This document shows, piece by piece, positions 8,006 to 54,409 of a stretch of 58,732 nt of DNA; position 1 is the first letter of the stretch; each line of letters opens with the position of its first letter. The position numbers and the translations under genes are program-made. The notes beneath the pieces are model-generated. The model saw only the letters and a list, made by a program, of their open reading frames with translations, was not told the origin of the DNA and did not search any database. Origin of the DNA: Syntrophobacterales bacterium (GTDB taxonomy: Bacteria; Desulfobacterota; Syntrophia; Syntrophales; UBA5619); NCBI GenBank assembly GCA_019429105.1, contig JAHYJE010000023.1, positions 1-58,732 on the forward strand. The letters are read 5' to 3'.

Positions 8006-9493
8006 TTGCCTGATGTCGTAAAAATGGAAAAAGTGAAGAGTAAGGTTGTTCTGGTTGTAGATGATTACGCGCCCACACGGAACCTGATTGTCGAGGCGCT
8101 TGAGCAGCAGGGGAATTATGAAGGACTGGAAGCCGAAAACGGGATTGAGGCGATCAAGTTTTTAGAGAAAAACCCCTGCGAAATGGTCATTACCGACGTC
8201 ATGATGCCCGGCATGGGCGGCATGGAATTGCTGCAGTCGATGCGGGAGAGGGATTTTTATATTCCGGTTATCATGATGACCTCCCGGCCCGCTGTTGACC
8301 TTACTGTCTCCGCGATGAAAAACGGTGTCGTTGATTTTCTGCAGAAGCCGTTTGATATCGATAAACTGCTTTTTAAGGTCGATTTGTATCTCCGGGAAGG
8401 TTCTGTTCCCAACCCGGTCTCCCCCCAGGATTCCCTGGCCATGAAAGAGGAACGGGAGCAACTCTCCCTGAAAAGTTATGTCTATGAAGCGGTGGAGCGG
8501 GCCGCCGGGGATAATGACGAGATTTTTCAGACCATTGTCGAGTTGGCTATGAGGATTGTCGATGGGGAAAGCTGCGCGCTTTTGCTCTACGACAAGGAGT
8601 ACCGTAAATTTTATCCGAAGGCCCAGAAGGGGGAGGATTATGATTTTTACCGGTCAAACACCGCCTCGACCATAACCGGTATTTATCAGGAGGCGATCGA
8701 TAAAAAAGACGCGGTGATGGTGCATTCCGATAGTGATCCCTTTATCTTGCCTTCGCTGATTTGCGCGCCCCTGCTGATACGCGGGAGCGTTTTGGGAGTG
8801 CTTAGCATCCGGAAGAAGAGAACTGGCGGGGTATTTACCAAAAACGATCTCCATCAGATTTTGAGCCTGGCGAAAAGGGCCTCCCTGAATCTCGAAAACA
8901 AAATCCTCTATGAAAGCATGTATGATAATTTGACGAGTACCTTTATGGCGCTCGTGGCGGCGATTCAGGTGCGGGATCATTACACGGAGGAACATTCCCG
9001 CCGCGTTGCAGAAACATCCGTTAAGATAGCCCAAAAAATGTGCCTGCCGCCTCCCGAGGTGGAACGGCTGCGGATCGCCTCGCTGCTCCACGATCTTGGG
9101 AAAATATCGATTCCCGACAACGTGCTTCTCAAGCCGGGCAATCTTACCGAAAAAGAATTTGAAATTATCAGGCAGCATCCCCTTACCGGCGATGCTATAC
9201 TGAGTTACATTCCCCTGCTTGACGATGAGCGGTTGATAGTTCGTCACCACCATGAACGGTGGGACGGCGGGGGCTATCCCGATGGTTTTGCCGGGAATGA
9301 TATCCCGCCTTTGGCGCGGATCATGGCGGTTGCGGATTCCTTCGACGCGATGACGAGCGATCGTCCCTACAGAAAAGGATTGCACCATGAAACGGCAATC
9401 TACGACATTAAAACAAACAAAAACAAGCAGTTCGACAAAAAAATTGTGGACGTTTTTCTGGGAATTCTGGAGGATGATAATAGCTTTTCCTGA
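8006..9493 (+). CDS. Response regulator with GAF-like and HD-GYP domains
   Basis: 495 residues from a TTG at 8006 with GAAGGGTGG six bases upstream; ATG 8024 is the alternative. Residues 8–125 are a receiver domain with the phospho-acceptor Asp in MVITDVMMPGMGG. Residues about 160–310 look like a GAF sensor. Residues about 315–490 are an HD-GYP c-di-GMP phosphodiesterase with EEHSRRVAE, the HD pair in LLHDLGKI, and HHHERWDGGGYPDGF. It should lower c-di-GMP on phosphorylation. It lies just after the sigma28-dependent small gene, suggesting a link to motility. Its TGA directly abuts a MITE-like repeat at 9494. Confidence 0.85.
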   Translation: MPDVVKMEKVKSKVVLVVDDYAPTRNLIVEALEQQGNYEGLEAENGIEAIKFLEKNPCEMVITDVMMPGMGGMELLQSMRERDFYIPVIMMTSRPAVDLTVSAMKNGVVDFLQKPFDIDKLLFKVDLYLREGSVPNPVSPQDSLAMKEEREQLSLKSYVYEAVERAAGDNDEIFQTIVELAMRIVDGESCALLLYDKEYRKFYPKAQKGEDYDFYRSNTASTITGIYQEAIDKKDAVMVHSDSDPFILPSLICAPLLIRGSVLGVLSIRKKRTGGVFTKNDLHQILSLAKRASLNLENKILYESMYDNLTSTFMALVAAIQVRDHYTEEHSRRVAETSVKIAQKMCLPPPEVERLRIASLLHDLGKISIPDNVLLKPGNLTEKEFEIIRQHPLTGDAILSYIPLLDDERLIVRHHHERWDGGGYPDGFAGNDIPPLARIMAVADSFDAMTSDRPYRKGLHHETAIYDIKTNKNKQFDKKIVDVFLGILEDDNSFS

Positions 9494-9625
9494 GAGCCAA
9501 TTGCAAAACTATTTGTCATTCCCGAATGCTTCTATCGGGAATACGGTTTTTCAATCAGTTATAACCAGATTCCCGCTTAAAATCATTGCGGGAATGACAG
9601 AATGTGAGAGTTTTGCAATTGGCTC
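9494..9625. repeat. MITE-like element, copy 1 (132 bp, no 21-bp units)
   Basis: Terminal inverted repeats GAGCCAATTGCAAAACT (9494–9510) and its exact complement (9609–9625) enclose two hairpins of the ATTCCCG…CGGGAAT type, at 9518–9542 (11-base loop) and 9569–9595. The hairpins resemble the dRS3-like ATTCCC/GGGAAT repeats of other bacteria. Copies 2 and 3 (37101, 48239) share the whole backbone but each carries two extra 21-bp units. The element begins at the base after the HD-GYP stop codon, where it may act as a 3' transcript end. No coding capacity and no clear target duplication. Confidence 0.85.
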
Positions 9626-9658
9626 AGTATTCCTGATTTTTTTTGGGGGGGGTAGTTG

Positions 9659-10447: not shown

Positions 10448-10625
10448 CAAAAATAAAAATATCAATCACAGCTTGTGTTTTGTGCAATAATTGGGGATGG
10501 GTATAAGGATAATCCCCCATGACGGCCTGCCGCCCCAAAGCAGGATGAAAATTGGCGGGACGCGCCTTGTCGCGTCCGGGGCGGCTTTATGGGCATTAAG
10601 CTTCGCTTTCAGTTAAGGAGAAACA

Positions 10626-24411: not shown

Positions 24412-24534
24412 TTACCGCTCCTTCTAATGCTGATTTTTCCCTCTTGTTTTCACGCGAAATGCATGCCGATAAATTGGTGATTGATATATAAATGGTTTCC
24501 TTCCAGGCAACCTCGACGGGCATTCAACATCTTT

Positions 24535-24555
24535 TTATGAACATTAAACTTCGTT
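24535..24555 (-). repeat. 21-bp repeat unit (single, inverted), between tolC and adaptor genes
   Basis: One unit in the minus orientation (complement core CGAAGTTTAATGTTCATAA) lies in the 182-bp gap between the outer-membrane channel and adaptor genes, just upstream of the adaptor. Its sequence is identical to the minus-oriented units in MITE-like copies 2 and 3 and to the second ispD unit. Confidence 0.85.
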
Positions 24556-24593
24556 TTCATCATTCTTTGCGCCGGTACGCCGTCAGGAGGGTT

Positions 24594-37085: not shown

Positions 37086-37133
37086 TTAAATCTCCCCTCT
37101 GAGCCAATTGCAAAACTATTTGTCATTCCCGAA

Positions 37134-37154
37134 AGCGGAGCTTAATATACACAA
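37134..37154 (+). repeat. 21-bp repeat unit inside MITE-like copy 2 (left)
   Basis: Variant unit with core GCGGAGCTTAATATACACAA. It interrupts the first hairpin loop at exactly the point where copy 1 reads CCCGAATGC. It is the most divergent unit in the window. Confidence 0.8.
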
Positions 37155-37197
37155 TGCTTCTATCGGGAATACGGTTTTTCAAGCAGTTAGAACCAGA

Positions 37198-37218
37198 TTA
37201 TGAACATTAAACTTCGTT
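37198..37218 (-). repeat. 21-bp repeat unit inside MITE-like copy 2 (right, inverted)
   Basis: Consensus unit in minus orientation, placed between AACCAGA and TTCCCGC, which are contiguous in copy 1. With the left unit it makes the element mirror-symmetric. Confidence 0.85.
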
Positions 37219-37276
37219 TTCCCGCTTAAAACCATTGCGGGAATGGCAGAATGTGAGAGTTTTGCAATTGCCTCCT

Positions 37277-38011
37277 CTAAAAAGATATTTTCGTTTTATA
37301 GACGTACAGGTCGCCGCGAAAATGGATGCAGGAGACTTCGACCGGCGCTTGGGAGATGTCCATGTAGGTATTTTCAACAAGGAACAGCGCCTCTCCGAAA
37401 CCTATTCCCAGTTTTGCGGAGGTATCGATGTCGGCGACGGTTGCGCGCACCATTTGTTCGACGCTGGCCAACTGAACGCCGCAATGATCGCGAAAGACGG
37501 TGAGAAAGGGCTGTTTTAAGAACATTTCCTTATTGACGCCGGACATCAGCTCGGGAAGAGCGTAGTTGACGATAAACGAGGCAGGATGTCCATTTAACTT
37601 TCTGATCCGCTTCATGCGCCATATCGGGGCACTGCCTTTTGCGTGGAGCAACTCGGCTATCCTGTGGGGACAGGGAACGGTGGCAAGCTCCAGCACCTCC
37701 GTCTCCGTCTGCAAATTTCCGGTCAGCGCGGAATCGGCCCAGTTCCAAAAATTGCCGGACAATTTAAGTTCCACAATTTCCTCGGGGCGCTTGGTAACCC
37801 TTGTTCCCACGCCCTGTTTCGGTTCTACATACCCCTCCTCAACGAGGATGCTCATCGCCTTGCGGATAGTTATGGCGCTTACCCCGAATTCCTGTTCAAG
37901 ATCGCGGGCGGGGGCGAGCAGCTCCCCGGCCCGGTATTCCTCCTGCAGGATGCGGCCTTTCAGTGTTTCGGCAAGCTGGACGTAGATGGGTGCTTTTCGA
38001 TTGTCGCTCAT
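37277..38011 (-). CDS. GntR-family regulator, HutC/UTRA type
   Basis: 244 residues from ATG 38011. Residues 1–70 form the winged helix (APIYVQLAETLKGRILQEEY, then GVSAITIRKAMSILVEEGYV and EPKQGVGTRVTKR). Residues about 85–240 are a UTRA effector-binding domain (IWRMKRIRKLNGHPASFIVN, GFGEALFLVENTYMD). Such proteins repress local catabolic or transport genes until an effector binds. Its own promoter is covered by a perfect palindrome (38114–38133), and a related site precedes dctP, so it probably controls both the enzymes and the importer. An in-frame upstream extension is open but lacks domain character. Confidence 0.88.
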   Translation of the reverse strand: MSDNRKAPIYVQLAETLKGRILQEEYRAGELLAPARDLEQEFGVSAITIRKAMSILVEEGYVEPKQGVGTRVTKRPEEIVELKLSGNFWNWADSALTGNLQTETEVLELATVPCPHRIAELLHAKGSAPIWRMKRIRKLNGHPASFIVNYALPELMSGVNKEMFLKQPFLTVFRDHCGVQLASVEQMVRATVADIDTSAKLGIGFGEALFLVENTYMDISQAPVEVSCIHFRGDLYVYKTKISF

Positions 38012-45458: not shown

Positions 45459-46784
45459 ATGTCAATAGTTGAGCCGTTCAGGGCGCTGCGGCCGCGGGGT
45501 GAATTTGTCGGCGCAGTCGCTGCGCTTCCCTATGATGTTATGAGTGTGGAGGAGGCGCGGCAGCAGATCAGAAAAAATCCGCTCAGTTTCCTGCGGGTGG
45601 AGAAGGCCGGATGCGATTTTCCCGTTGGAGAGGAAGCTGCTGAACAGATTGTCTGCCAAAGAGCCAAGGACAATCTGGAAAGGATGATTAAAGAGGGAAT
45701 CCTTGGTCAGGATGAATCCGCCTCGTTTTATCTCTATCGCCAGCAAATGGGAGGGCATGTGCAAACGGGCGTCGTGGCCTGTGTCAGCGTTGATGAATAC
45801 AGAAAAGGCCGGATAAAAACCCATGAGCTTACCCTGGAAGCCAAGGAAAAGGGACGGACGCTGCATATCGACTGCATCGGGGCGCAGACCGGGCCGGTAT
45901 TTCTTACCTATCGGGGGCAAGAACAGATAGACAGCTTACTGGCAAAGGTGGCAAAACAGGTTCCCGAGTATGATTTTACGGCGGACGACGGAATTCGTCA
46001 CACTGCGTGGATAATTGATGAGCTTGCGGATATAAAGGCGCTTCAAACGGCCTTTTTGCCGGTTGAGTGCCTTTACATAGCCGATGGCCACCACCGCGCC
46101 GCCGCCGCCGTCCGGGTAGCCGGTCTGCGGGCGGAACTTTCGTCCGGGAAATCGAAGATTAATGTTCATAAAGCGAGGCTTGATGTTCATAAAAAGGCCC
46201 TCAACGAGCCTGATGTTATGCTGGCGGTACTTTTTCCCAGCGATCAGTTGCGGATCATGGATTACAACCGTGCCGTCAGGGATTTAAACGGCCTTGCCAG
46301 GGACGAGTTTCTGGAAAAGATAGAGGATAAATTTCTGATAGCAAAAAATTTTCCGGAGAAAGCGGAGCTTAATGTTCATAAATCGCAGCTTAATGTTCAA
46401 AAATTGCCCCGGCGACCCCATGACTTCGGCATGTATCTGCAGGGGAAATGGTATCTTCTGTCGGCCCGTGAAAAGGCGCTGTCAAAGGCAAAACTGGCCG
46501 ACGCGCTTGATGTTTCCGTTTTGCAGGATAACATCCTGGGGCCGGTTCTCGGGATCGATAATCCGCGCACGGATAAGCGAATTGCCTTCATTGGAGGGGT
46601 GCGCGGTGCAGCCGGTCTGGAGAGTATTGTTGACAGAGATGGTTTTGCCGTCGCCTTTTCCCTTTTTCCGCCGACAGTTGAGCAGATGATGGCCGTGGCT
46701 GACGCCGGGATGGTCATGCCGCCCAAATCCACCTGGTTTGAGCCGAAGCTGCGGAGCGGCTTGTTCGTCCATCTGATCGATTAG
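45459..46784 (+). CDS. DUF1015 family protein with two in-frame 21-bp repeat pairs
   Basis: 441 residues from ATG 45459 behind GGGAGAGGAAG. DUF1015 motifs are seen: PFRALRPRGEFVGAVAALPY and DVMSVEEAR near the start, LYIADGHHRAAAAVRVAG in the middle, and VMLAVLFPSDQLRIMDYNR. The family's reaction is unknown. Two 42-bp head-to-tail repeat pairs are inserted in frame, at 46151–46192 (adding KSKINVHKARLDVHK) and 46361–46402 (adding KAELNVHKSQLNVQK). Both fall in regions likely to be surface loops, after the HHR motif and before the RRPHDFGMYL strand. The frame stays open throughout, so the protein is probably made with both insertions. Confidence 0.82.
   Translation: MSIVEPFRALRPRGEFVGAVAALPYDVMSVEEARQQIRKNPLSFLRVEKAGCDFPVGEEAAEQIVCQRAKDNLERMIKEGILGQDESASFYLYRQQMGGHVQTGVVACVSVDEYRKGRIKTHELTLEAKEKGRTLHIDCIGAQTGPVFLTYRGQEQIDSLLAKVAKQVPEYDFTADDGIRHTAWIIDELADIKALQTAFLPVECLYIADGHHRAAAAVRVAGLRAELSSGKSKINVHKARLDVHKKALNEPDVMLAVLFPSDQLRIMDYNRAVRDLNGLARDEFLEKIEDKFLIAKNFPEKAELNVHKSQLNVQKLPRRPHDFGMYLQGKWYLLSAREKALSKAKLADALDVSVLQDNILGPVLGIDNPRTDKRIAFIGGVRGAAGLESIVDRDGFAVAFSLFPPTVEQMMAVADAGMVMPPKSTWFEPKLRSGLFVHLID
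46151..46192 (+). repeat. 21-bp repeat, tandem pair inside DUF1015 gene (first)
   Basis: Two head-to-tail units (46151–46171 and 46172–46192), cores CGAAGATTAATGTTCATAA and CGAGGCTTGATGTTCATAA. In the gene's frame they encode two seven-residue steps ending in NVHK and DVHK. The 42 bp keep the reading frame. Confidence 0.9.
46361..46402 (+). repeat. 21-bp repeat, tandem pair inside DUF1015 gene (second)
   Basis: Two head-to-tail units (46361–46381 and 46382–46402), cores CGGAGCTTAATGTTCATAA and CGCAGCTTAATGTTCAAAA, encoding AELNVHK and SQLNVQK in frame. One base change turns His into Gln in the second step. Confidence 0.9.
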
Positions 46785-46786
46785 CC

Positions 46787-47560
46787 ATGAATGGCAATTT
46801 TTTGCAGCAAGAAGGGGAGAAGATCGATCGGATCCTCGCCGGTCGGCTCCGGATCATTCAGAAGGAGAGGGGTTATCGCTTTTCGATAGATGCCCTCTTG
46901 CTTGCCCATTTCGTCATTTTAAATGCCGGCGATGACATAATTGAGCTGGGAACGGGCAGTGGGATTGTTGCGCTTATCCTGGCGCAACATCCTGGTCTCG
47001 GGCGTGTTTTGGGGATCGAGATTCAGGAACAGCTTGTTGCCATTGCCCGGAGCAATGTGTCCCTGAACGGCCTGACCGACAGGGTTGAAATCAGACAGGC
47101 CGACGTCCGCTTTCCGGAATCACTCTGTCGGCCGCAAGCCTTTTCCGTCGCGGTATTCAACCCCCCTTACCGGCGGATGCGCTCGGGCAGGCTCAATCCC
47201 GACGCGGAGAAGGCCGCCGCCCGCCACGAAGTCTTCGGAACGGTGAATGATTTTATCGCCGCGGCCGCTTTCGTCCTGCGGCCGGGCGGACGAATGTTTG
47301 CAATTTATCCGGCGACCAGAATGGTGGAGTTGATCGCCCGGATGCGCTCATTCCGGATCGAACCCCGGCGGCTGCGACTTGTCTATTCCCGAGCTGGCGG
47401 GGCGGCTGTTTTTGTGCTCGTGGAGGGAACAAAGGGGGGCGGGGAGGGTCTGGACGTTCCACCACCGCTTCTCATTTACGAGTCAAACGGGGAATATACG
47501 GCCGCAATGAACGATATTTTCAGGGAGCTTGCCGCTTTTGAATCGCCCGGCGCCGACTGA
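46787..47560 (+). CDS. tRNA1(Val) A37 N6-methyltransferase-like protein (TrmN6 family)
   Basis: 257 residues. A class I SAM-binding fold has IIELGTGSGIVALILAQ (motif I) and VLGIEIQEQLVAIARSNVSL. The catalytic NPPY is in VAVFNPPYRRM, as in adenine-N6 and glutamine methyltransferases. N-terminal GYRFSIDALLLAHFV is typical of the YfiC/TrmN6 group that modifies A37 of tRNA(Val). It starts 2 bp after the DUF1015 stop and is probably cotranscribed. Its 3' end overlaps the convergent DciA-like gene by 41 bp. Substrate assignment is by family only. Confidence 0.82.
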   Translation: MNGNFLQQEGEKIDRILAGRLRIIQKERGYRFSIDALLLAHFVILNAGDDIIELGTGSGIVALILAQHPGLGRVLGIEIQEQLVAIARSNVSLNGLTDRVEIRQADVRFPESLCRPQAFSVAVFNPPYRRMRSGRLNPDAEKAAARHEVFGTVNDFIAAAAFVLRPGGRMFAIYPATRMVELIARMRSFRIEPRRLRLVYSRAGGAAVFVLVEGTKGGGEGLDVPPPLLIYESNGEYTAAMNDIFRELAAFESPGAD

Positions 47561-48026
47561 TCTCCGTGATCATCGTCCTTTCGATCGCCGCTCGGAGTTC
47601 CGGATCCCCGATCGCCGTGAGGCTCTGCTCCACCATTTGCCGGTCTCGCAACCGGAGCTTCTGGATGACCAAAGCGGGGGGGTACTTGTCGGGCGCCTGG
47701 GAAGGGCTCTCAGGAACCTCGCCGATCGAGAAAGAAAGACGCCGGAATTCTTCTGTGCCGGACAGTTCGTTAAGCTTGACGAGGATTTCCTCCTTGAGAA
47801 ACTGCAGTTGATGAAGCCAGACCGTGGTGGAAACGATCACGTACAGCGAACCCCTTTTGAGATTTTCCGGCAGGGTGCGCGAGGCGATCAGGGGGCCAAC
47901 AGCTCGCTCCCACAAATCTAAAAGGCGGCGGTCGGTCCTTTTGTGGGGAATGTCCATTTTTTTTAGAACCTTGTGGAGGATATCCCCGAGCGGTTCCGGT
48001 TTTCTGGATGAAGTTCTCTTGCGCAT
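47520..48026 (-). CDS. DciA-like (DUF721) protein
   Basis: 168 residues from ATG 48026. The KH-like DUF721 region is EPLGDILHKVLKKMDIPHKR and RLLDLWERAVGPLIASRTLP, then RGSLYVIVSTTVWLHQLQFL. DciA proteins load or recruit the replicative helicase DnaB in bacteria lacking DnaC. The C-terminal part (about 105–168) is a basic tail specific to this protein. It is convergent with the methyltransferase gene, with overlapping 3' ends. Confidence 0.75.
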   Translation of the reverse strand: MRKRTSSRKPEPLGDILHKVLKKMDIPHKRTDRRLLDLWERAVGPLIASRTLPENLKRGSLYVIVSTTVWLHQLQFLKEEILVKLNELSGTEEFRRLSFSIGEVPESPSQAPDKYPPALVIQKLRLRDRQMVEQSLTAIGDPELRAAIERTMITEISRRRAIQKRQAP

Positions 48027-48182
48027 GATCTCTTTTCTCACATTTTGCGGTTGCGGGTCAAGCAGCAGGGTTTCCCCGGGTTAAAATATTTCTCTTGACC
48101 TCTTCGCTGTTGCCGGGTTAGCAGAAATAAACGCTGCATTGGCTTGACAAGGGCGCATTTTGCAAGAGGGAGGGAAAACCGT

Positions 48183-48341
48183 ATGAGTTTAACAGCCATG
48201 ATCGACAGTATCAAGGGACAACCCGATTACAAACGGGAGAGCCAATTGCAAAACTATTTGTCATTCCCGAAAGCGGAGCTTAATGTACACAATGCTTCTA
48301 TCGGGAATACGGTTTTTCAAGCAGTTAGAACCAGATTATGA
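48183..48341 (+). pseudogene. Start of a gene interrupted by a MITE-like element
   Basis: A good ribosome-binding site (GAGGGAGGG) precedes ATG 48183 and the frame MSLTAMIDSIKGQPDYKR. It then enters the MITE-like element at 48239 and runs through it to a stop at 48341. Beyond the element, 48413–48440 reads RDVVTKVEI and stops. The two flanking pieces recall the ends of the small MoaE-like proteins of Deltaproteobacteria (start M-x-x-x-x-MI-x-x-IK-x-x-P-D, end …VVTK-x-E), so the body of the gene may have been lost. This identity is a weak guess; the interruption itself is visible. Confidence 0.4.
48272..48292 (+). repeat. 21-bp repeat unit inside MITE-like copy 3 (left)
   Basis: Variant unit with core GCGGAGCTTAATGTACACAA, located in the first hairpin loop at the same base as in copy 2, from which it differs by one base. 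Confidence 0.8.
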
Positions 48342-48356
48342 ACATTAAACTTCGTT
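48336..48356 (-). repeat. 21-bp repeat unit inside MITE-like copy 3 (right, inverted)
   Basis: Consensus unit in minus orientation before the second hairpin, identical to the one in copy 2. Confidence 0.85.
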
Positions 48357-48461
48357 TTCCCGCTTAAAATCATTGCGGGAATGACAGAATGTGAGAGTTT
48401 TGCAATTGCCTCGGGATGTTGTAACGAAGGTTGAAATATAAGGAATTTTCAGGATGGGAAT

Positions 48462-49118
48462 GTGGCGGACATCTTTCAAAAACAAAGACTAAAAATGGTT
48501 GACATCCAGGTTCGGGGAAGGGGGATCTCCGATCAGCGGTTGCTCAGGGCAATGGAGAAGGTTCCGCGCCATCTTTTCATCGCGGAGGGCTTGCGCGATC
48601 AGGCGTACAACGACCGTCCCCTTCCCATTGAAGAGCAGCAGACGATCTCGCAGCCCTATATCGTGGCTTTGATGTCCGCAGCACTGGAGCTGACGGGAAG
48701 AGAAAGGGTGCTGGAGATCGGAACCGGTTCCGGCTATCAAACCGCGGTTCTTGCCGAACTGGCCGAACGGGTCTTTTCCATCGAGCGCATTGCCGCTTTG
48801 GCCGCCGGGGCAAGAAGGATTCTCGATGCCCTCGCTTATTTCAATGTTGCCATCCGCGTTGGCGACGGAACCTTCGGGTGGCGCGAGGAGTCGCCTTTTG
48901 CGGCTATCATGGCGACCGCCGGCGCCCCGCAAGTTCCCAGACTGTTAATCGAACAGTTGGCCATCGGCGGCCGTCTGGTGATTCCTGTGGGGGGACGCAA
49001 TTCCCAAACCCTGCTCAGACTGACCAGGCTCTCGGATGATCCTGAAGATGTGAAGCAGGAAGAACTATGCGGGTGCCGTTTTGTAGATCTGATTGGTGAA
49101 CACGGATGGAAAAACTGA
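48462..49118 (+). CDS. pcm: Protein-L-isoaspartate O-methyltransferase
   Basis: 218 residues from GTG 48462 behind AGGATGGG. PCMT motifs are clear: VPRHLFIAEGLRDQAYNDRP, LPIEEQQTISQPYIVALMSA, VLEIGTGSGYQTAVLAELAE (SAM motif I) and FAAIMATAGAPQVPRLLIEQ. It methylates isoaspartyl residues in damaged proteins so that they can revert. It overlaps the following NlpD-like gene by 13 bp, the usual pcm–nlpD arrangement. surE, often upstream of pcm, is absent; a MITE-like element lies there instead. Confidence 0.93.
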   Translation: MADIFQKQRLKMVDIQVRGRGISDQRLLRAMEKVPRHLFIAEGLRDQAYNDRPLPIEEQQTISQPYIVALMSAALELTGRERVLEIGTGSGYQTAVLAELAERVFSIERIAALAAGARRILDALAYFNVAIRVGDGTFGWREESPFAAIMATAGAPQVPRLLIEQLAIGGRLVIPVGGRNSQTLLRLTRLSDDPEDVKQEELCGCRFVDLIGEHGWKN

Positions 49119-50065
49119 ACAAAGAGTTTTATCGACCTGTTCCCCCCGAGGGAAGATGGGGCGCCCTTGCCTTTTTTCTGCTTTTCATCATTTCCTGTTC
49201 GGGGTTGCCCTTTAAGGAAGCCGGACCGAGCGGGGTTTATCACCGGGTAAAAAGCGGGGAGACACTTTTTGCCATTGCCAAAGCATACCACACAGATCTG
49301 CAGGGCCTGGCCGAGATTAACAATATAACCAATCCTTCTTTGATCGAGAAGGACAGCGTGATCTTTATCCCCCACGCACAAATGGTTATCGACGAAATAG
49401 AAATTATTGCCAGAGCTAAAAAAACTAAGACAAAAAGCACCGTAAAGGAACCAGTCCTTGAAAAGAGAACCGTCCCCACTGGCCCAGTTGTTCAAGATTC
49501 CCGAAAAAAATCGGACGTTGCCGAAAAAAATCGGACAAATGCTGCAGGCGACCTTCTGAAGGAAGAGACCATACATCCCTCCCGGGATGCCGCCAAAAAA
49601 AGCGCCGCGGGAAGTCCCGAAGAAAAAATCACATTGTTGAAACCCGAGAAAGCTGCGGATAAAAATGAAAAACAGGAGCAGGTGCGTTTTAATAAAAACA
49701 TTTTCATTTGGCCGGTTAAAGGAAAGGTTGTCTCTTTTTTTGGCGTTCAGCCCAACCGGATGGTTTTCAACGGGATTCGGATTGCGGCGCCTGAAGGCGC
49801 CGTCGTTGTTGCAGCCGGGGATGGCGTTGTCATCCATTCGGATCCTTTAAAATATTATGGCGAGACGATGATCATCCAGCATGCGGATGATTATGCATCT
49901 GTTTATGCCAATCTGGGCGTCCGCATTGCCGTTTTAAACGAGCGGGTGAAAAAGGGCGACAGGATTGGTTTTATCGGCAGCGACTCCGGAACGGGGGAGG
50001 CAACTCTCCATTTTGAGATCAGAAATAAAAATAAGGCCAGAAATCCCCTTTTTTTCCTTCCCTGA
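49106..50065 (+). CDS. NlpD-like LysM/M23 lipoprotein
   Basis: 319 residues. A hydrophobic signal with a lipobox-like LLFIISC predicts a lipoprotein. A LysM domain (about 47–95) reads VYHRVKSGETLFAIAKAYHT and INNITNPSLIEKDSVIFIP. A lysine-rich linker follows (about 105–190). The M23 domain (about 200–318) has FIWPVKGKVVSFFGVQPN, a partly altered first metal motif (NGIRIAAPEGAVV; the usual HxGxD His is absent), and LHFEIRNKNKARNP. The missing His suggests an inactive, NlpD-type activator of amidases rather than a peptidase. Two 21-bp units follow the stop. Confidence 0.85.
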   Translation: MEKLNKEFYRPVPPEGRWGALAFFLLFIISCSGLPFKEAGPSGVYHRVKSGETLFAIAKAYHTDLQGLAEINNITNPSLIEKDSVIFIPHAQMVIDEIEIIARAKKTKTKSTVKEPVLEKRTVPTGPVVQDSRKKSDVAEKNRTNAAGDLLKEETIHPSRDAAKKSAAGSPEEKITLLKPEKAADKNEKQEQVRFNKNIFIWPVKGKVVSFFGVQPNRMVFNGIRIAAPEGAVVVAAGDGVVIHSDPLKYYGETMIIQHADDYASVYANLGVRIAVLNERVKKGDRIGFIGSDSGTGEATLHFEIRNKNKARNPLFFLP

Positions 50066-50066
50066 A

Positions 50067-50108
50067 AACGTAAATTAATGTTCATAAATCGTAGATTAAT
50101 GTTCATAA
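50067..50108 (+). repeat. 21-bp repeat, tandem pair after the NlpD-like gene
   Basis: Two head-to-tail units (50067–50087, 50088–50108), cores CGTAAATTAATGTTCATAA and CGTAGATTAATGTTCATAA, start one base after the NlpD-like stop codon. They lie in the 195-bp space before carD, upstream of its promoter. Confidence 0.9.
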
Positions 50109-50199
50109 AACGAAAAAGCCTTGTCGAACATATAAAAAACTGATTTCCGGCAAGGGGAGTTCATAACCCGCAAGCTTCTCGAAACATCGCGAATCGTAT

Positions 50200-50228
50200 T
50201 GACTATTCTTGAAAAACCTGATATCATC
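50200..50228 (+). promoter_or_regulatory. Sigma70-type promoter of carD
   Basis: TTGACT (50200–50205), a 17-base spacer and TATCAT (50223–50228) match the housekeeping consensus at 10 of 12 positions. The carD ATG is 33 bp downstream. It probably drives carD and the following PIN/TRAM–ispD–ispF genes. Confidence 0.7.
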
Positions 50229-50260
50229 GCTCTCCAAAACTAAACACTATAGGTGTAAAA

Positions 50261-50746
50261 ATGTTCAATGTTGGAGATTTAGCGGTATATCCGGCACAGG
50301 GAGTGGGAATCATCGAGGCAATTGAAAACAGGGAAGTGGGAGGCGCCAGGCAGAAGTTCTACATAATGAAAATTATGAGCAATGGGATGAAAATCATGAT
50401 CCCCCTGGATGGCGCCCAGACTGCTGGTTTGCGCAAGGTGATCAAGGAAAAGGAGATCCCCAAGATATACGAGATTCTGAAAAACAGGGATTTTACGATT
50501 GACAAGCAGACGTGGAACAAAAGATACAGGGAATATCTGGAAAAGATAAAAACGGGTTCGGTATTTGAGATAGCCAGGGTTCTGCGGGATCTTTGCGTTC
50601 TTAAAATCGACAAGAACCTCTCTTTTGGTGAGCGGAAGATGATGGATACGGCCAAGGGGCTGCTCGTCAAGGAGATTTCCGTTGCGGCCAATGCCGAGGA
50701 GGCGAAGATCGAAGAGGATATCAATACGATCTTTACCGTGCAGTGA
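50261..50746 (+). CDS. carD: CarD family transcriptional regulator
   Basis: 161 residues. Residues 1–60 are the RNA-polymerase-interacting domain (MFNVGDLAVYPAQGVGIIEA and FYIMKIMSNGMKIMIPLDGA). The helical C-terminal domain (about 70–160) contains IYEILKNRDFTIDKQTWNKR and LSFGERKMMDTAKGLLVKEI. CarD binds the polymerase beta subunit and stabilises open promoter complexes, with wide effects on rRNA and growth genes. The order carD–PIN/TRAM–ispD–ispF is common in Deltaproteobacteria and Firmicutes. Confidence 0.93.
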   Translation: MFNVGDLAVYPAQGVGIIEAIENREVGGARQKFYIMKIMSNGMKIMIPLDGAQTAGLRKVIKEKEIPKIYEILKNRDFTIDKQTWNKRYREYLEKIKTGSVFEIARVLRDLCVLKIDKNLSFGERKMMDTAKGLLVKEISVAANAEEAKIEEDINTIFTVQ

Positions 50747-50841
50747 AGTTTTATCCCGCCTGTCAGGGGGAAGGAGTTTTTTCAGATGAAGGGGGGTGAA
50801 TAGCACTGATTGTAAAGGCGATACTGATTATTTTATGTTCC

Positions 50842-51807
50842 TTGAGCGGTTATTTCATCGCCTATCACAGCTATTACGACTGGTGGAAATGGATCGTCGG
50901 CGTTTTTGTCGGGGCGCTGGCGGCGGTGCTGGTAATCCAGATTGAGAAGATTGCCCGCCGGGTTTCATTGCGGGTTATCCTTGGCGGCGTAGTTGGGATG
51001 CTTATTGGTCTTTTAATTGCTTTTTTACTTGCCTATGGTTTGAATTTCGTCAGCAATATTATGGAGAACCGCCAGGTTGTCCCCTGGATTTATACGCTTC
51101 TTACCGCGGCGTTGGGTTATATGGGGCTGGTTCTCGGCTCGCAGAAGGTCGAGGAAGTCAGCATGTTCGGCTGGGGGCCCGCTCGGGAAATCAGTGATTA
51201 CCGGATACTGGATACCAGCGTGATTATCGATGGGCGGATTGCCGATATTGCCGATACCGGTTTTCTGGAAGGCAATCTGATTGTCCCCCGTTTTGTGCTC
51301 GATGAACTCCAGTACGTTGCCGATTCCGCCGATTCCCTAAAAAGGGCGCGCGGCCGGCGAGGGCTCGATATCCTCAACCGGATGCAGCGCAGCAGCGGGA
51401 TTTTTATCGATGTCGTAGATCATGATTTTCCGAAGATCAAAGGCGTTGATTCTAAACTTGTCGCCCTGGCGAAAAAGACGAATGGCCGGATCATCACCAA
51501 TGATTTTAACCTCAACAAGGTTGCAGAACTTCAGGGGATAAAGATTCTCAATGTCAACGAGCTGGCCAATGCCCTGAAGCCGGTTGTTCTACCGGGTGAA
51601 CTGATGACGGTGAAAATAATCAAGGATGGCAAGGAACCGGGGCAGGGGGTTGCGTATTTGGAAGACGGCACCATGATCATTGTTGATAACGCGCAGCGCT
51701 ATCAGGGAGAGAATGTCGAGGCCCTGGTGACCAGTGTTTTGCAGACAACCGCCGGCCGGATGATTTTTTCCGAAATGAAGACGGCGGCAAACGATAAAAA
51801 ATCGTAA
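50842..51807 (+). CDS. PIN/TRAM-domain membrane protein (YacL-like)
   Basis: At least 321 residues. Membrane helices occupy the first 105 or so ([55 protein letters not shown]). A PIN nuclease domain follows ([59 protein letters not shown] with DFNLN), then a TRAM RNA-binding domain ([20 protein letters not shown]). The TTG at 50842 lacks a ribosome-binding site and cuts into the expected first helix. The frame is open back to 50800, where GGGGGG precedes ATA, CTG (50806) and ATT (50809), so a non-canonical start there is likely. It follows carD and precedes ispD. Confidence 0.85.
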
Positions 51808-51854
51808 ATACTTCGAGTATTTGCCATTCGCCGTTAGTTTCCCAGGTCTGCGGC

Positions 51855-52613
51855 ATGAAAACGAAGTTTAATGTTCACAAAACGAAGTTTAATGTTCATA
51901 AAACAGTGGCGATAATACCCGCCGGGGGAGCGGGAAGGAGAATGGGCGGCAGCATCTCCAAACAGTACCTGCTCCTTTTGGGGAAACCGGTTCTTGTTCG
52001 CGCCTTACAGCCATTTCAGGATTCACCATTAATAGATGAAATAATTCTCGCCGTTCCGGAGGAAGATGTTGCGCAGGTGCGGAAAGAAATTGTTGAAAGA
52101 TACTCCCTTTCGAAGCTTGAGCGCGTTGTTGCAGGGGGGAATGAACGACAGGATTCCATCAGAAATGCGCTTGCCTGTATTGCCGATGAAACGGAGATCA
52201 TTGTCATTCATGACGGAGTCCGGCCGCTTGTCACGACCGAGCTGATTGAGAGGGCAATCGAAAGTGCGGGAAAGCTGGGCGCTGTTGCGACGGGCATTGG
52301 CATCCGGGATACGGTGAAACGGGTCGCTAAAACAGGAAAAATCGAAGAGACAGTGCTTAGGGACGGTTTGTGGCTGGCGCAAACGCCCCAGGCCTTCAAG
52401 AGGGACATTCTTCTTGCCGCTTACCGCGTGGCGGAGGAAACGGGATTTTACGGTACCGACGACGCCTCGCTCGTCGAGAAGGCCGGAATCCCCGTCTGGA
52501 TGATTCCCGGCGACAGGGAAAATCTCAAGGTGACGACGCACGAGGACATGATGATCTGCGCAAGGATCCTGCAGTACCGGGAAAAAGACTTGAGCGATAT
52601 CGGGCGGCTCTGA
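51855..52613 (+). CDS. ispD: 2-C-methyl-D-erythritol 4-phosphate cytidylyltransferase
   Basis: 252 residues. The start ATG (51855) is followed at once by two 21-bp repeat units, so the protein begins MKTKFNVHKTKFNVHKT before the normal IspD opening VAIIPAGGAGRRMGGSISKQ. The unmodified gene would have begun M-K-T-V-A-I-I. The rest is standard: VVAGGNERQDSIRNAL, VIHDGVRPLVT and LWLAQTPQAFKRDILL, then GTDDASLVEKAG. It makes CDP-methylerythritol in the non-mevalonate isoprenoid pathway. Its stop overlaps the ispF ATG (TGATG). No strong ribosome-binding site is visible upstream. Confidence 0.92.
   Translation: MKTKFNVHKTKFNVHKTVAIIPAGGAGRRMGGSISKQYLLLLGKPVLVRALQPFQDSPLIDEIILAVPEEDVAQVRKEIVERYSLSKLERVVAGGNERQDSIRNALACIADETEIIVIHDGVRPLVTTELIERAIESAGKLGAVATGIGIRDTVKRVAKTGKIEETVLRDGLWLAQTPQAFKRDILLAAYRVAEETGFYGTDDASLVEKAGIPVWMIPGDRENLKVTTHEDMMICARILQYREKDLSDIGRL
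51860..51901 (+). repeat. 21-bp repeat, tandem pair at the 5' end of ispD
   Basis: Two head-to-tail units (51860–51880, 51881–51901), the closest to consensus, begin six bases after the A of the ispD ATG. They encode KFNVHKT twice in frame, extending the IspD N-terminus by 14 residues. Confidence 0.92.
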
Positions 52614-53086
52614 TGAAAACCGGCTTCGGATATGACAGCCACCGCCTTACGGCTGGACGCAGACTTATCCTGGGGGGGGTGGAGATTCCCTCCGAAAAGG
52701 GGCTCGCCGGCCATTCAGATGCCGATGTTCTTGTGCACGCCGTTTGCGATGCGCTAATTGGCGCCCTGGCCATGGGCGACATCGGCAGGCTTTTCCCCGA
52801 TAGCGACCCCGCCTTCAAGGATATTTCCAGTCTGATTTTGTTGAAGCGGGTCGGGACGCTGGTTTCTGAACATGGTTATCAGGTGCGCAATATCGATGCG
52901 ACGATCGTTCTGGAGAGGCCGAAATTGGCCGGCTATCTGCCCGTGATGGCGCAAAATATTGCCGACGTTCTGGCGATTTCCGGGTCTGCTGTAAGCGTCA
53001 AGGCCAAAACAAATGAAGGAATGGGGATGATCGGTGCAGGAGAAGGGGCCGCGGCATTTGCCGTTATCTTGATCGAAGAAGCCTGA
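52613..53086 (+). CDS. ispF: 2-C-methyl-D-erythritol 2,4-cyclodiphosphate synthase
   Basis: 157 residues, the normal IspF length. The ATG at 52613 shares a base with the ispD stop. The N-terminus GFGYDSHRLTAGRRLILGGV carries the D-x-H metal ligands, followed by GLAGHSDADVLVHAVCDALI and the conserved LFPDSDPAFKDISS. The C-terminal NEGMGMIGAGEGAAAFAV is also typical. It converts CDP-ME-2-phosphate to the cyclic diphosphate. ispD and ispF are adjacent and coupled, with no fusion. Confidence 0.95.
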   Translation: MKTGFGYDSHRLTAGRRLILGGVEIPSEKGLAGHSDADVLVHAVCDALIGALAMGDIGRLFPDSDPAFKDISSLILLKRVGTLVSEHGYQVRNIDATIVLERPKLAGYLPVMAQNIADVLAISGSAVSVKAKTNEGMGMIGAGEGAAAFAVILIEEA

Positions 53087-53098
53087 CGGCAGCCGGAA

Positions 53099-53119
53099 AT
53101 CGAAGATTGATGTTCATAA
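53099..53119 (+). repeat. 21-bp repeat unit between ispF and pgk (first)
   Basis: Single unit with core CGAAGATTGATGTTCATAA, 13 bp after the ispF stop. Confidence 0.85.
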
Positions 53120-53176
53120 ACTGAAAAAGGGTTTTCCCGATATTTCCGCAGGGCAGGGGCCGCTTATAACTCAGAA

Positions 53177-53197
53177 ATCGAAGATTAATGTTCATAA
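53177..53197 (+). repeat. 21-bp repeat unit between ispF and pgk (second)
   Basis: Single unit with core CGAAGATTAATGTTCATAA, ending 18 bp before the pgk start and just before its AAGGAGG ribosome-binding site. It is separated by 57 bp from the first unit, and both lie in the pgk leader. Confidence 0.85.
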
Positions 53198-53215
53198 ATT
53201 GATTAAGGAGGCAGC

Positions 53216-54409
53216 ATGAAATTCATAGACGAATTAGACATTCATAAAAAAAAGGTGTTGTTTCGCTTCGATTTTAACGTTCCTCTGGACAGTTCTCAAA
53301 ACATTACCGACGATATCCGCATCCGGTCGGTCCTCCCCTCGATAAATTACGCCCTCGATGAAAAGGCCAGGGTGATTATCGTTTCGCATCTTGGCCGTCC
53401 CAAGGGGAAGGTTGTGCCGGAGATGAGTCTGGCTCCGGTGGCGAAACGCCTTTCGCGGCTTCTGGGCAAGGATGTCCAGTTTGCCCCGGATTGCATTGGC
53501 GAGGATGTCCGCCGGAGGGTGGACGCCTTGCAGGCCGGCGACGTGCTGCTTTTGGAAAACCTGCGATTTCATAAGGAGGAAGAGAAAAACGACGAGGCAT
53601 TCGCCGCCGAACTGGGCGGTCTGGCTGATATTTACATTGACGACGCTTTCGGCAACGCCCATCGTGCGCATGCCTCCAACGTCGGCATTACCCGGTTTGT
53701 GAAGATGCGCGGCGCAGGGTTTCTGATCAAAAAGGAGATTGAATATTTCGGCGGGGCGCTGGAAAAACCGGCCCGGCCGTTTGTCGCTATTGTCGGCGGT
53801 TCCAAGGTCTCAGGAAAGCTGGAGGCCGTTGCCAACCTGATTCGGAAGGTTGACAAGATCATCCTGGGCGGGGGCATGGCCTTTACGTTTCTGAAGGCCC
53901 TCGGCTACGGCATCGGTAAATCCGTTGTGGAGGACGAGCTGATCGGCAGGGCGGCCGAGGTGATGAAGGCGGTAAAGGAGCTGGGTGTAAAGCTCTATCT
54001 GCCGGTTGACTGCGTGATCGCGGAAAGCAGGGAAGCGGGCGCCCAGATCAGGGTAGTGCCCGTTCAGGAGATTACTCCGGGCTGGATGGGGCTGGATATT
54101 GGCCCTGCAACGGTAACCCTCTTTGCCGAGGTGTTGGAAAATGCCAAGACGATCCTCTGGAACGGGCCGATGGGCGTCTTTGAGATACCGGCCTTCAGCC
54201 ACGGCACAACAGCGATGGCAAGAACTCTCGCGAACTCCGCGGCGGTAACGATTGTGGGCGGCGGCGATACGGACGTGGCCATCCAGCAGGCCGGCGAAAG
54301 CGACAAGATTACCTATATTTCAACCGGCGGCGGCGCCTCGCTGGAACTGCTTGAGGGCAAGGTGTTGCCGGGGATAGCCGCTTTGGAGCCGGACGGCCAA
54401 GAGGCGTAA
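53216..54409 (+). CDS. pgk: Phosphoglycerate kinase
   Basis: 397 residues, full length. N-terminal VLFRFDFNVPLDSSQNITDD binds the phosphoglycerate. Also present are VIIVSHLGRPKGKVVPEMSL, DDAFGNAHRAHASNVGITRF, PFVAIVGGSKVSGKLEAVAN, and the nucleotide-binding ILWNGPMGVFEIPAFSHGT and VGGGDTDVAIQQAG. It interconverts 1,3-bisphosphoglycerate plus ADP with 3-phosphoglycerate plus ATP. No gapdh precedes it; its leader carries two 21-bp repeats and AAGGAGG. truA follows after 27 bp. Confidence 0.95.
   Translation: MKFIDELDIHKKKVLFRFDFNVPLDSSQNITDDIRIRSVLPSINYALDEKARVIIVSHLGRPKGKVVPEMSLAPVAKRLSRLLGKDVQFAPDCIGEDVRRRVDALQAGDVLLLENLRFHKEEEKNDEAFAAELGGLADIYIDDAFGNAHRAHASNVGITRFVKMRGAGFLIKKEIEYFGGALEKPARPFVAIVGGSKVSGKLEAVANLIRKVDKIILGGGMAFTFLKALGYGIGKSVVEDELIGRAAEVMKAVKELGVKLYLPVDCVIAESREAGAQIRVVPVQEITPGWMGLDIGPATVTLFAEVLENAKTILWNGPMGVFEIPAFSHGTTAMARTLANSAAVTIVGGGDTDVAIQQAGESDKITYISTGGGASLELLEGKVLPGIAALEPDGQEA

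Follow-up and report, generated by a model that had tools for sequence, protein, structure and literature searches.

Two 21-bp repeat arrays lie in frame in a DUF1015 gene

The window, by which we mean the whole 58,732-nt stretch of DNA that was analysed, contains on its plus strand a gene of 441 codons at positions 45459 to 46784 including the stop codon (coding 45459-46781). Its product matches the Pfam family DUF1015 (PF06245) over the full length of the profile (1-325/325) with an E-value of 2.4e-98. This gene hosts two insertions, each consisting of two 21-bp units on the plus strand. Array 1 occupies positions 46149 to 46193, including the target bases AAA; it is preceded by a G and adds 14 amino acids (KSKINVHKARLDVH). 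Array 2 occupies positions 46359 to 46403 and likewise adds 14 amino acids (KAELNVHKSQLNVQ). Read in frame, the units encode KSKINVH-KARLDVH in array 1 and KAELNVH-KSQLNVQ in array 2. An earlier note on this DNA had described two in-frame 21-bp pairs in one DUF1015 gene, which the unit reading and the Pfam match confirm; its coordinates (46151-46192 and 46361-46402) were correct up to a 2-base rotation, the limits given here including the terminal AA(N).

In an alignment with 29 DUF1015 relatives from the order, a 14-column gap was found at both array positions in every relative (29/29), among them a protein from the same genus with 67% identity. The two segments thus behave as the insertions that the note had predicted. 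A DUF1015 relative from a viral-contig collection was also missing both segments. The window protein retains every column that is invariant among 20 DUF1015 proteins, and the gene therefore does not look dead; the claims that it stays open over 441 codons and that the insertions are tolerated were both borne out. The site of array 1 coincides with a stretch that varies in length among the relatives. An AlphaFold2 model of the protein, built on a two-sequence alignment, had a pLDDT of 32, too low for the model to be used, and a PDB sequence search for a DUF1015 structure found none.

The unit is dispersed and occurs in head-to-tail chains

The consensus of the unit is AAANCGNAGN'TTNATGTTCAY, followed by AA and one further base, both of which belong to the target. 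When up to two mismatches were allowed, the 14-base core of the unit (TTAATGTTCATAAA) was found 15 times in the window, compared with 0.35 expected from shuffles, and the full unit with up to three mismatches was present in 279 copies in its own 3.1-Mb genome, compared with none for a reversed control pattern. The occurrence of the unit is therefore not a matter of chance. For closer comparison, stretches surrounding units were drawn from this genome. Among 225 units compared, variation was confined to the two N, the middle base of the loop, base 13, base 21 and the target base; every other position was constant to at least 93%. A search of Rfam gave no match in the window.

An insertion comprises one to four units, head to tail, and the 37 multi-unit arrays that we identified are all chains of this type with a 21-bp period. 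Adjacent units within arrays differ less from each other than random ones do (1.58 versus 2.66 differences at five variable sites), yet neighbours are often different, which suggests that both local duplication and repeated insertion may act. Slippage may explain changes in copy number within arrays only. We give almost no credence to the idea that a short repeat native to DUF1015 was duplicated by slippage at this locus. The tandem arrangement and the resemblance between neighbours would suit such a local expansion, but the same 21-bp unit recurs in unrelated genes, in REP repeats and in other genomes, the DUF1015 relatives contain no precursor at the array sites, and the two units of array 1 differ at several variable sites.

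Whole units are inserted at G^AA

For about three dozen filled sites an empty counterpart was available, being either a further copy of the host repeat concerned or a related locus; the compared genomes are drafts or metagenome-assembled. The difference between filled and empty copies was 21 bp x n at G^AAN, with the third base following that of the target. In one such pair CCGTCG-AAA-GACGG becomes CCGTCG-AAAGCGAAGCTTCATGTTCATAAA-GACGG, and in another ACACGG-AAT-CCAG becomes ACACGG-AAAGCGAAGCTTAATGTTCATAAT-CCAG. Whole units are inserted at a preferred G^AA, without loss of target bases and without any duplication other than that of the ambiguous AA. From these comparisons between repeat copies and relatives we infer that the unit moves. 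Several pairs have identical flanks, suggesting that the unit has been active recently, and its mobiliser should therefore be findable.

Of 120 deduplicated sites, 74% had a G immediately before the unit; in general, G precedes AA in 32% of cases. The commonest context was TG^AA, which fits the many insertions that directly follow an ATG start codon and the single insertion at a TGA stop codon (50065). Hairpin loops were also considered as targets, since many REP loops are hit, but this idea was rejected: with repeat families removed, 19 of 89 sites had a stem of at least 4 bp, compared with a background of 18.5%.

The core of the unit matches a GNA-triloop mini-hairpin

The stem of the unit comprises 4 bp plus 3 bp and its loop 3 nt. 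In the predicted DNA fold of a single unit the stem is CAT.AAGC/GCTT.ATG, with a z-score of about -2 relative to shuffles, a modest gain for a short hairpin. Complementarity between the two N positions holds in 194 of the 225 units (86%), compared with 107 expected in a count that ignores the shared descent of subfamilies; the pairs are G-C, A-T, T-A and, once, C-G. Within the hairpin core C, G, A and G are each 94-98% constant in these units, while the loop middle N is free. Because of the complementary N positions and the free loop middle, the core can be described as N-C-G-N-A-G-N', a putative GNA-triloop DNA mini-hairpin in which the C-GNA-G core is followed by a complementary next pair. 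Such a mini-hairpin is known to be extraordinarily stable whatever its middle base (PMC4686876). Compensatory change within the mini-hairpin suggests that selection acts on the DNA in its single-stranded form, and on the basis of this motif the unit would be recognised as a single-stranded hairpin.

Further units in the window

A second gene with a two-unit array is a LysM/peptidase-like gene (49106-50065), where the array lies at the TGA stop codon (50065 to 50109, plus strand) and insertion at TG^AA restores the stop. Another two-unit array (51858 to 51902, plus strand) directly follows the start codon of ispD (51855-52613). One unit is present at the same site in a genome of the same genus, so that the two units here and the one there reflect either common descent or parallel insertion. 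Single plus-strand units are located shortly downstream of an ispF-like ORF that ends at 53086 (53097 to 53120) and upstream of the start, at 53216, of a phosphoglycerate-kinase-like ORF (53175 to 53198). On the minus strand there is a single unit at 24534 to 24557 and a slightly degenerate one at 10586 to 10609. The stretch 46149-53198 thus holds six intact arrays in 7 kb, every one on the plus strand.

The window also contains three copies of a longer repeat that consists of two TGTC-type REP palindromes and is itself a target of the unit. Two copies, at 37096-37279 and 48234-48417, each carry one unit on the plus strand (37132 to 37155 and 48270 to 48293) and a second on the minus strand (37197 to 37220 and 48335 to 48358). 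The third copy, at 9489 to 9630 on the plus strand, is empty of both units and 42 bp shorter than the filled copies.

Across the genome to which the window belongs (G000), arrays were clustered and co-oriented: 10 pairs lay less than 5 kb apart, all on the same strand, where 1.5 were expected. Seven of its 31 intact arrays fall in the window compared with 0.6 expected, a figure that is not independent because the window had been singled out by the first stage of the work. Units were slightly more often on the G-rich strand (96/150), which may be due to gene orientation.

Host genes read the unit in several phases

In a separate count by gene, 37 arrays, including a few degenerate ones, could be placed in 34 host entries; Pfam recognises nearly all of these, and the recognised host genes number about 30. 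The hosts include UvrC, RecC (twice), RecB, riboflavin synthase, IspD and LpxK. Relative to its homologues UvrC contains a clean insertion of 7 residues, and RecC contains two clean insertions, one of 14 residues read antisense and one of 7 residues read in sense. The clean insertion in one RecB (L124) spans 16 columns and adjoins the conserved NWRS helicase motif. The records concerned are L201 / L284 (G000 C19) for recC, L124, from another MAG, for recB, and L194 for uvrC. RecB of G000 itself may contain, in a linker of variable sequence, an antisense unit that has decayed (IIMNIHRR). In LpxK (L037:178-1281) antisense units at the very start of the gene appear to provide the start codon and the first residues (MIMNIKLRFMNIKLRF). 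CarA (L240) may contain a degenerate unit; it was not counted as a shown host because the profile gap is not clear.

A length of 21 bp corresponds to exactly seven codons, and the unit is free of stop codons in sense phases 0 and 2, in antisense phase 0 and, if base 13 is C, in sense phase 1; genes therefore often stay open after an insertion. The phases used in host genes are these stop-free ones. The unit is read as KAKLNVHK in sense phase 0, KRSLMFT in sense phase 2 and MNIKLRF in antisense phase 0, while in sense phase 1, where a C at base 13 is needed to abolish the stop, the variants that have this base are read as ESAASCSQ. That both pairs are read in the same phase, as the earlier note had it, holds within the DUF1015 gene but fails as a general rule for unit insertions, given that three sense phases and one antisense phase are used in Pfam-recognised genes. 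The proposal that the element supplies a charged linker peptide fails likewise as a general rule, four peptides being translated from one repeat.

The suggestion that other phases or the reverse sense might be selected against is weak as a general claim. Among 19 internal arrays, whose assignment may be biased by the choice of ORFs by length and Pfam match and of which the two in recC are not independent, 12 were in sense phase 0 (6.0 expected, p = 0.004) and one was antisense (6.4 expected, p = 0.004). The other phases do, however, occur in genes. This excess and deficit are compatible with some selection for a hydrophilic reading. Arrays were also frequent just after start codons, where N-terminal arrays need caution because the true starts may lie downstream.

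These biases, together with the frequent location right after start codons, are what would be expected if the peptide were functional, a charged heptad linker under selection in proteins. We consider this very unlikely, since the same DNA yields four different peptides, many units lie outside genes or within REP repeats, and the covarying positions of the unit track DNA pairing rather than amino-acid type. As judged from the sequences, the unit is a DNA-level insertion that is tolerated where a stop-free phase exists. It does not appear to be the supplier of one charged peptide, because it is read in several phases in Pfam-recognised genes, with clean gaps in the relatives.

A probable mobile repeat as a likely passenger in DUF1015

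A very small repeat of codon-multiple length that invades genes is a real and clear case. For the DUF1015 segments, the reading we favour (probability about 0.82) is that they represent a dispersed, probably mobile 21-bp palindromic repeat, which would have been inserted via a single-stranded DNA hairpin and is most likely a neutral passenger. The unit would act as single-stranded DNA, its core forming the GNA-triloop mini-hairpin, and a candidate enzyme would recognise this mini-hairpin and insert the unit at G^AA; a Y1/HUH-like nuclease is the usual precedent. In DUF1015 two copies would have landed in tolerant places, and insertions that disrupted essential folds would have been lost.

Relation to known repeats and the search for a mobiliser

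The closest known kinds are intragenic REPs and Rickettsia palindromic elements (RPEs), from which the unit family is distinct and much smaller. As summarised in PMC10969869 and PMC2229807 (Ogata et al. 2000, 2002), RPEs are palindromic elements of about 105-150 bp that have long stems and carry inverted repeats at their ends. Like RPEs as portrayed there, the unit is palindromic and dispersed, and it lies in frame in many unrelated, often essential genes as well as between genes, with orthologues that are without it; in-frame insertion into a conserved gene with such orthologues was found for DUF1015, UvrC, RecC and RecB. Unlike RPEs in those accounts, it measures 21 bp x n, lacking their size, long stems and terminal inverted repeats. 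It has instead a 4+3 bp stem with a GNA triloop, is arranged head to tail, targets G^AA and is translated in several phases.

GTAG REPs carry a GTAG tag at the foot of the stem, and CGTC REPs a CGTC, TGTC or CCTC tag, a stem of 8-9 bp, a loop of 4-5 nt and a 3-bp tail (PMC3733652). In REPs head-to-head and tail-to-tail dimers predominate while head-to-tail ones are negligible (PMC3733652), and Di Nocera et al. (2013, PMC3733652) noted a preference of intragenic REPs for uvr and recBCD genes. The unit shares with REPs its size class, palindrome, species-restricted families, multi-unit arrays and intragenic insertion, notably in uvr and recBCD genes. It differs in its head-to-tail arrangement and strict 21-bp period and in having no GTAG or CGTC tag, no RAYT association was found for it, and it inserts into TGTC-type REPs. 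Tests for the GTAG tag, for the CGTC tag, stem and loop, for REP-like dimer orientation and for a transposase flanked by repeats found none of these features in the unit, which does not belong to the GTAG or CGTC class because tag, stem, loop and array type differ.

That the unit is nevertheless an ordinary REP family moved by a resident RAYT/Y1 (PF01797) transposase seems unlikely to us. Its size, palindrome, scatter and intragenic placement recall REPs (PMC3733652), and G000 contains three intact RAYT-like Y1 genes and one decayed fragment (C30, C54, C61, C35). Yet no tag is present beside the stem, the tandems are of the type that is negligible in REPs, and in the analysed stretches of G000, G001 and G003 the intact Y1_Tnp genes have no unit beside them. 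Moreover, of the unit-bearing genomes G154 has no Y1_Tnp match at all and G152 only a broken one, while many Y1-bearing genomes of the family are without the unit. A dedicated Y1/RAYT transposase for the unit is poorly supported.

REPIN/RAYT systems and IS200/IS605-type single-stranded DNA elements are characterised by a short hairpin, a one-sided target preference and no clear target duplication. By analogy, the unit would resemble them in all three respects. It differs in that no transposase partner or autonomous copy was found, and it is far smaller than the known non-autonomous IS200/IS605 derivatives.

We regard it as improbable that the unit began as the end of an insertion sequence. In other Syntrophales MAGs a multi-copy element has the unit at a distance of about 60 bp from the right end, and it occurs with shared flanking sequence in three taxa (L063, L069 and L118), in L069 alongside a transposase-like ORF. 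However, two of the three taxa show a mismatch at the N.N' pair, that ORF has no match in G000, G001, G152 or G153, and the unit may equally be an old insertion into the element. Records with this element are L063, L069, L072, L118, L123, L127, L129 and L131.

To return to the probable mobile repeat, it might tentatively, and at distinctly less than even odds, be assigned to a previously undescribed minimal class of mobile DNA. Such 21-bp elements would have a GNA mini-hairpin and a short tail as their sole information, would be inserted at G^AA without RAYT or IS200, and would alter host proteins genome-wide, including RecBC and UvrC. If this is true, minimal mobile DNA alters precisely those enzymes that are responsible for processing DNA ends and lesions. 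To our knowledge, the unit is the smallest protein-invading repeat described; a literature search covering open-access text found no paper describing it. Thanks to its period of exactly seven codons, one could measure over dozens of genes at once how well proteins tolerate repeated insertions. With its units in recB, recC and uvrC, an unrelated family repeats, in a small sample of 19 internal arrays, the pattern that Di Nocera et al. saw for REPs (PMC3733652).

The unit family is all but confined to the order around Syntrophales

Among 155 genomes of the order, the unit was abundant only in the two genomes of this genus; beyond these it was found sporadically in one further genus and in a few individual genomes. 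Two-unit arrays were found only in G000 and G153 among 395 genomes across the phylum. The viral contigs searched contained no exact unit. In a scan of the genomes of 84,980 species, matches were found almost only in Syntrophales-type MAGs, and Smithella sp. M82, which was in the scan, belongs to the same order as judged from matching coordinates. The unit family is therefore essentially restricted to the order around Syntrophales. A planctomycete record (L109) and a Chthoniobacter record (L124) also carry units. Both are probably mis-binned contigs; the RecB of L124 shares 38-45% identity with members of the order.
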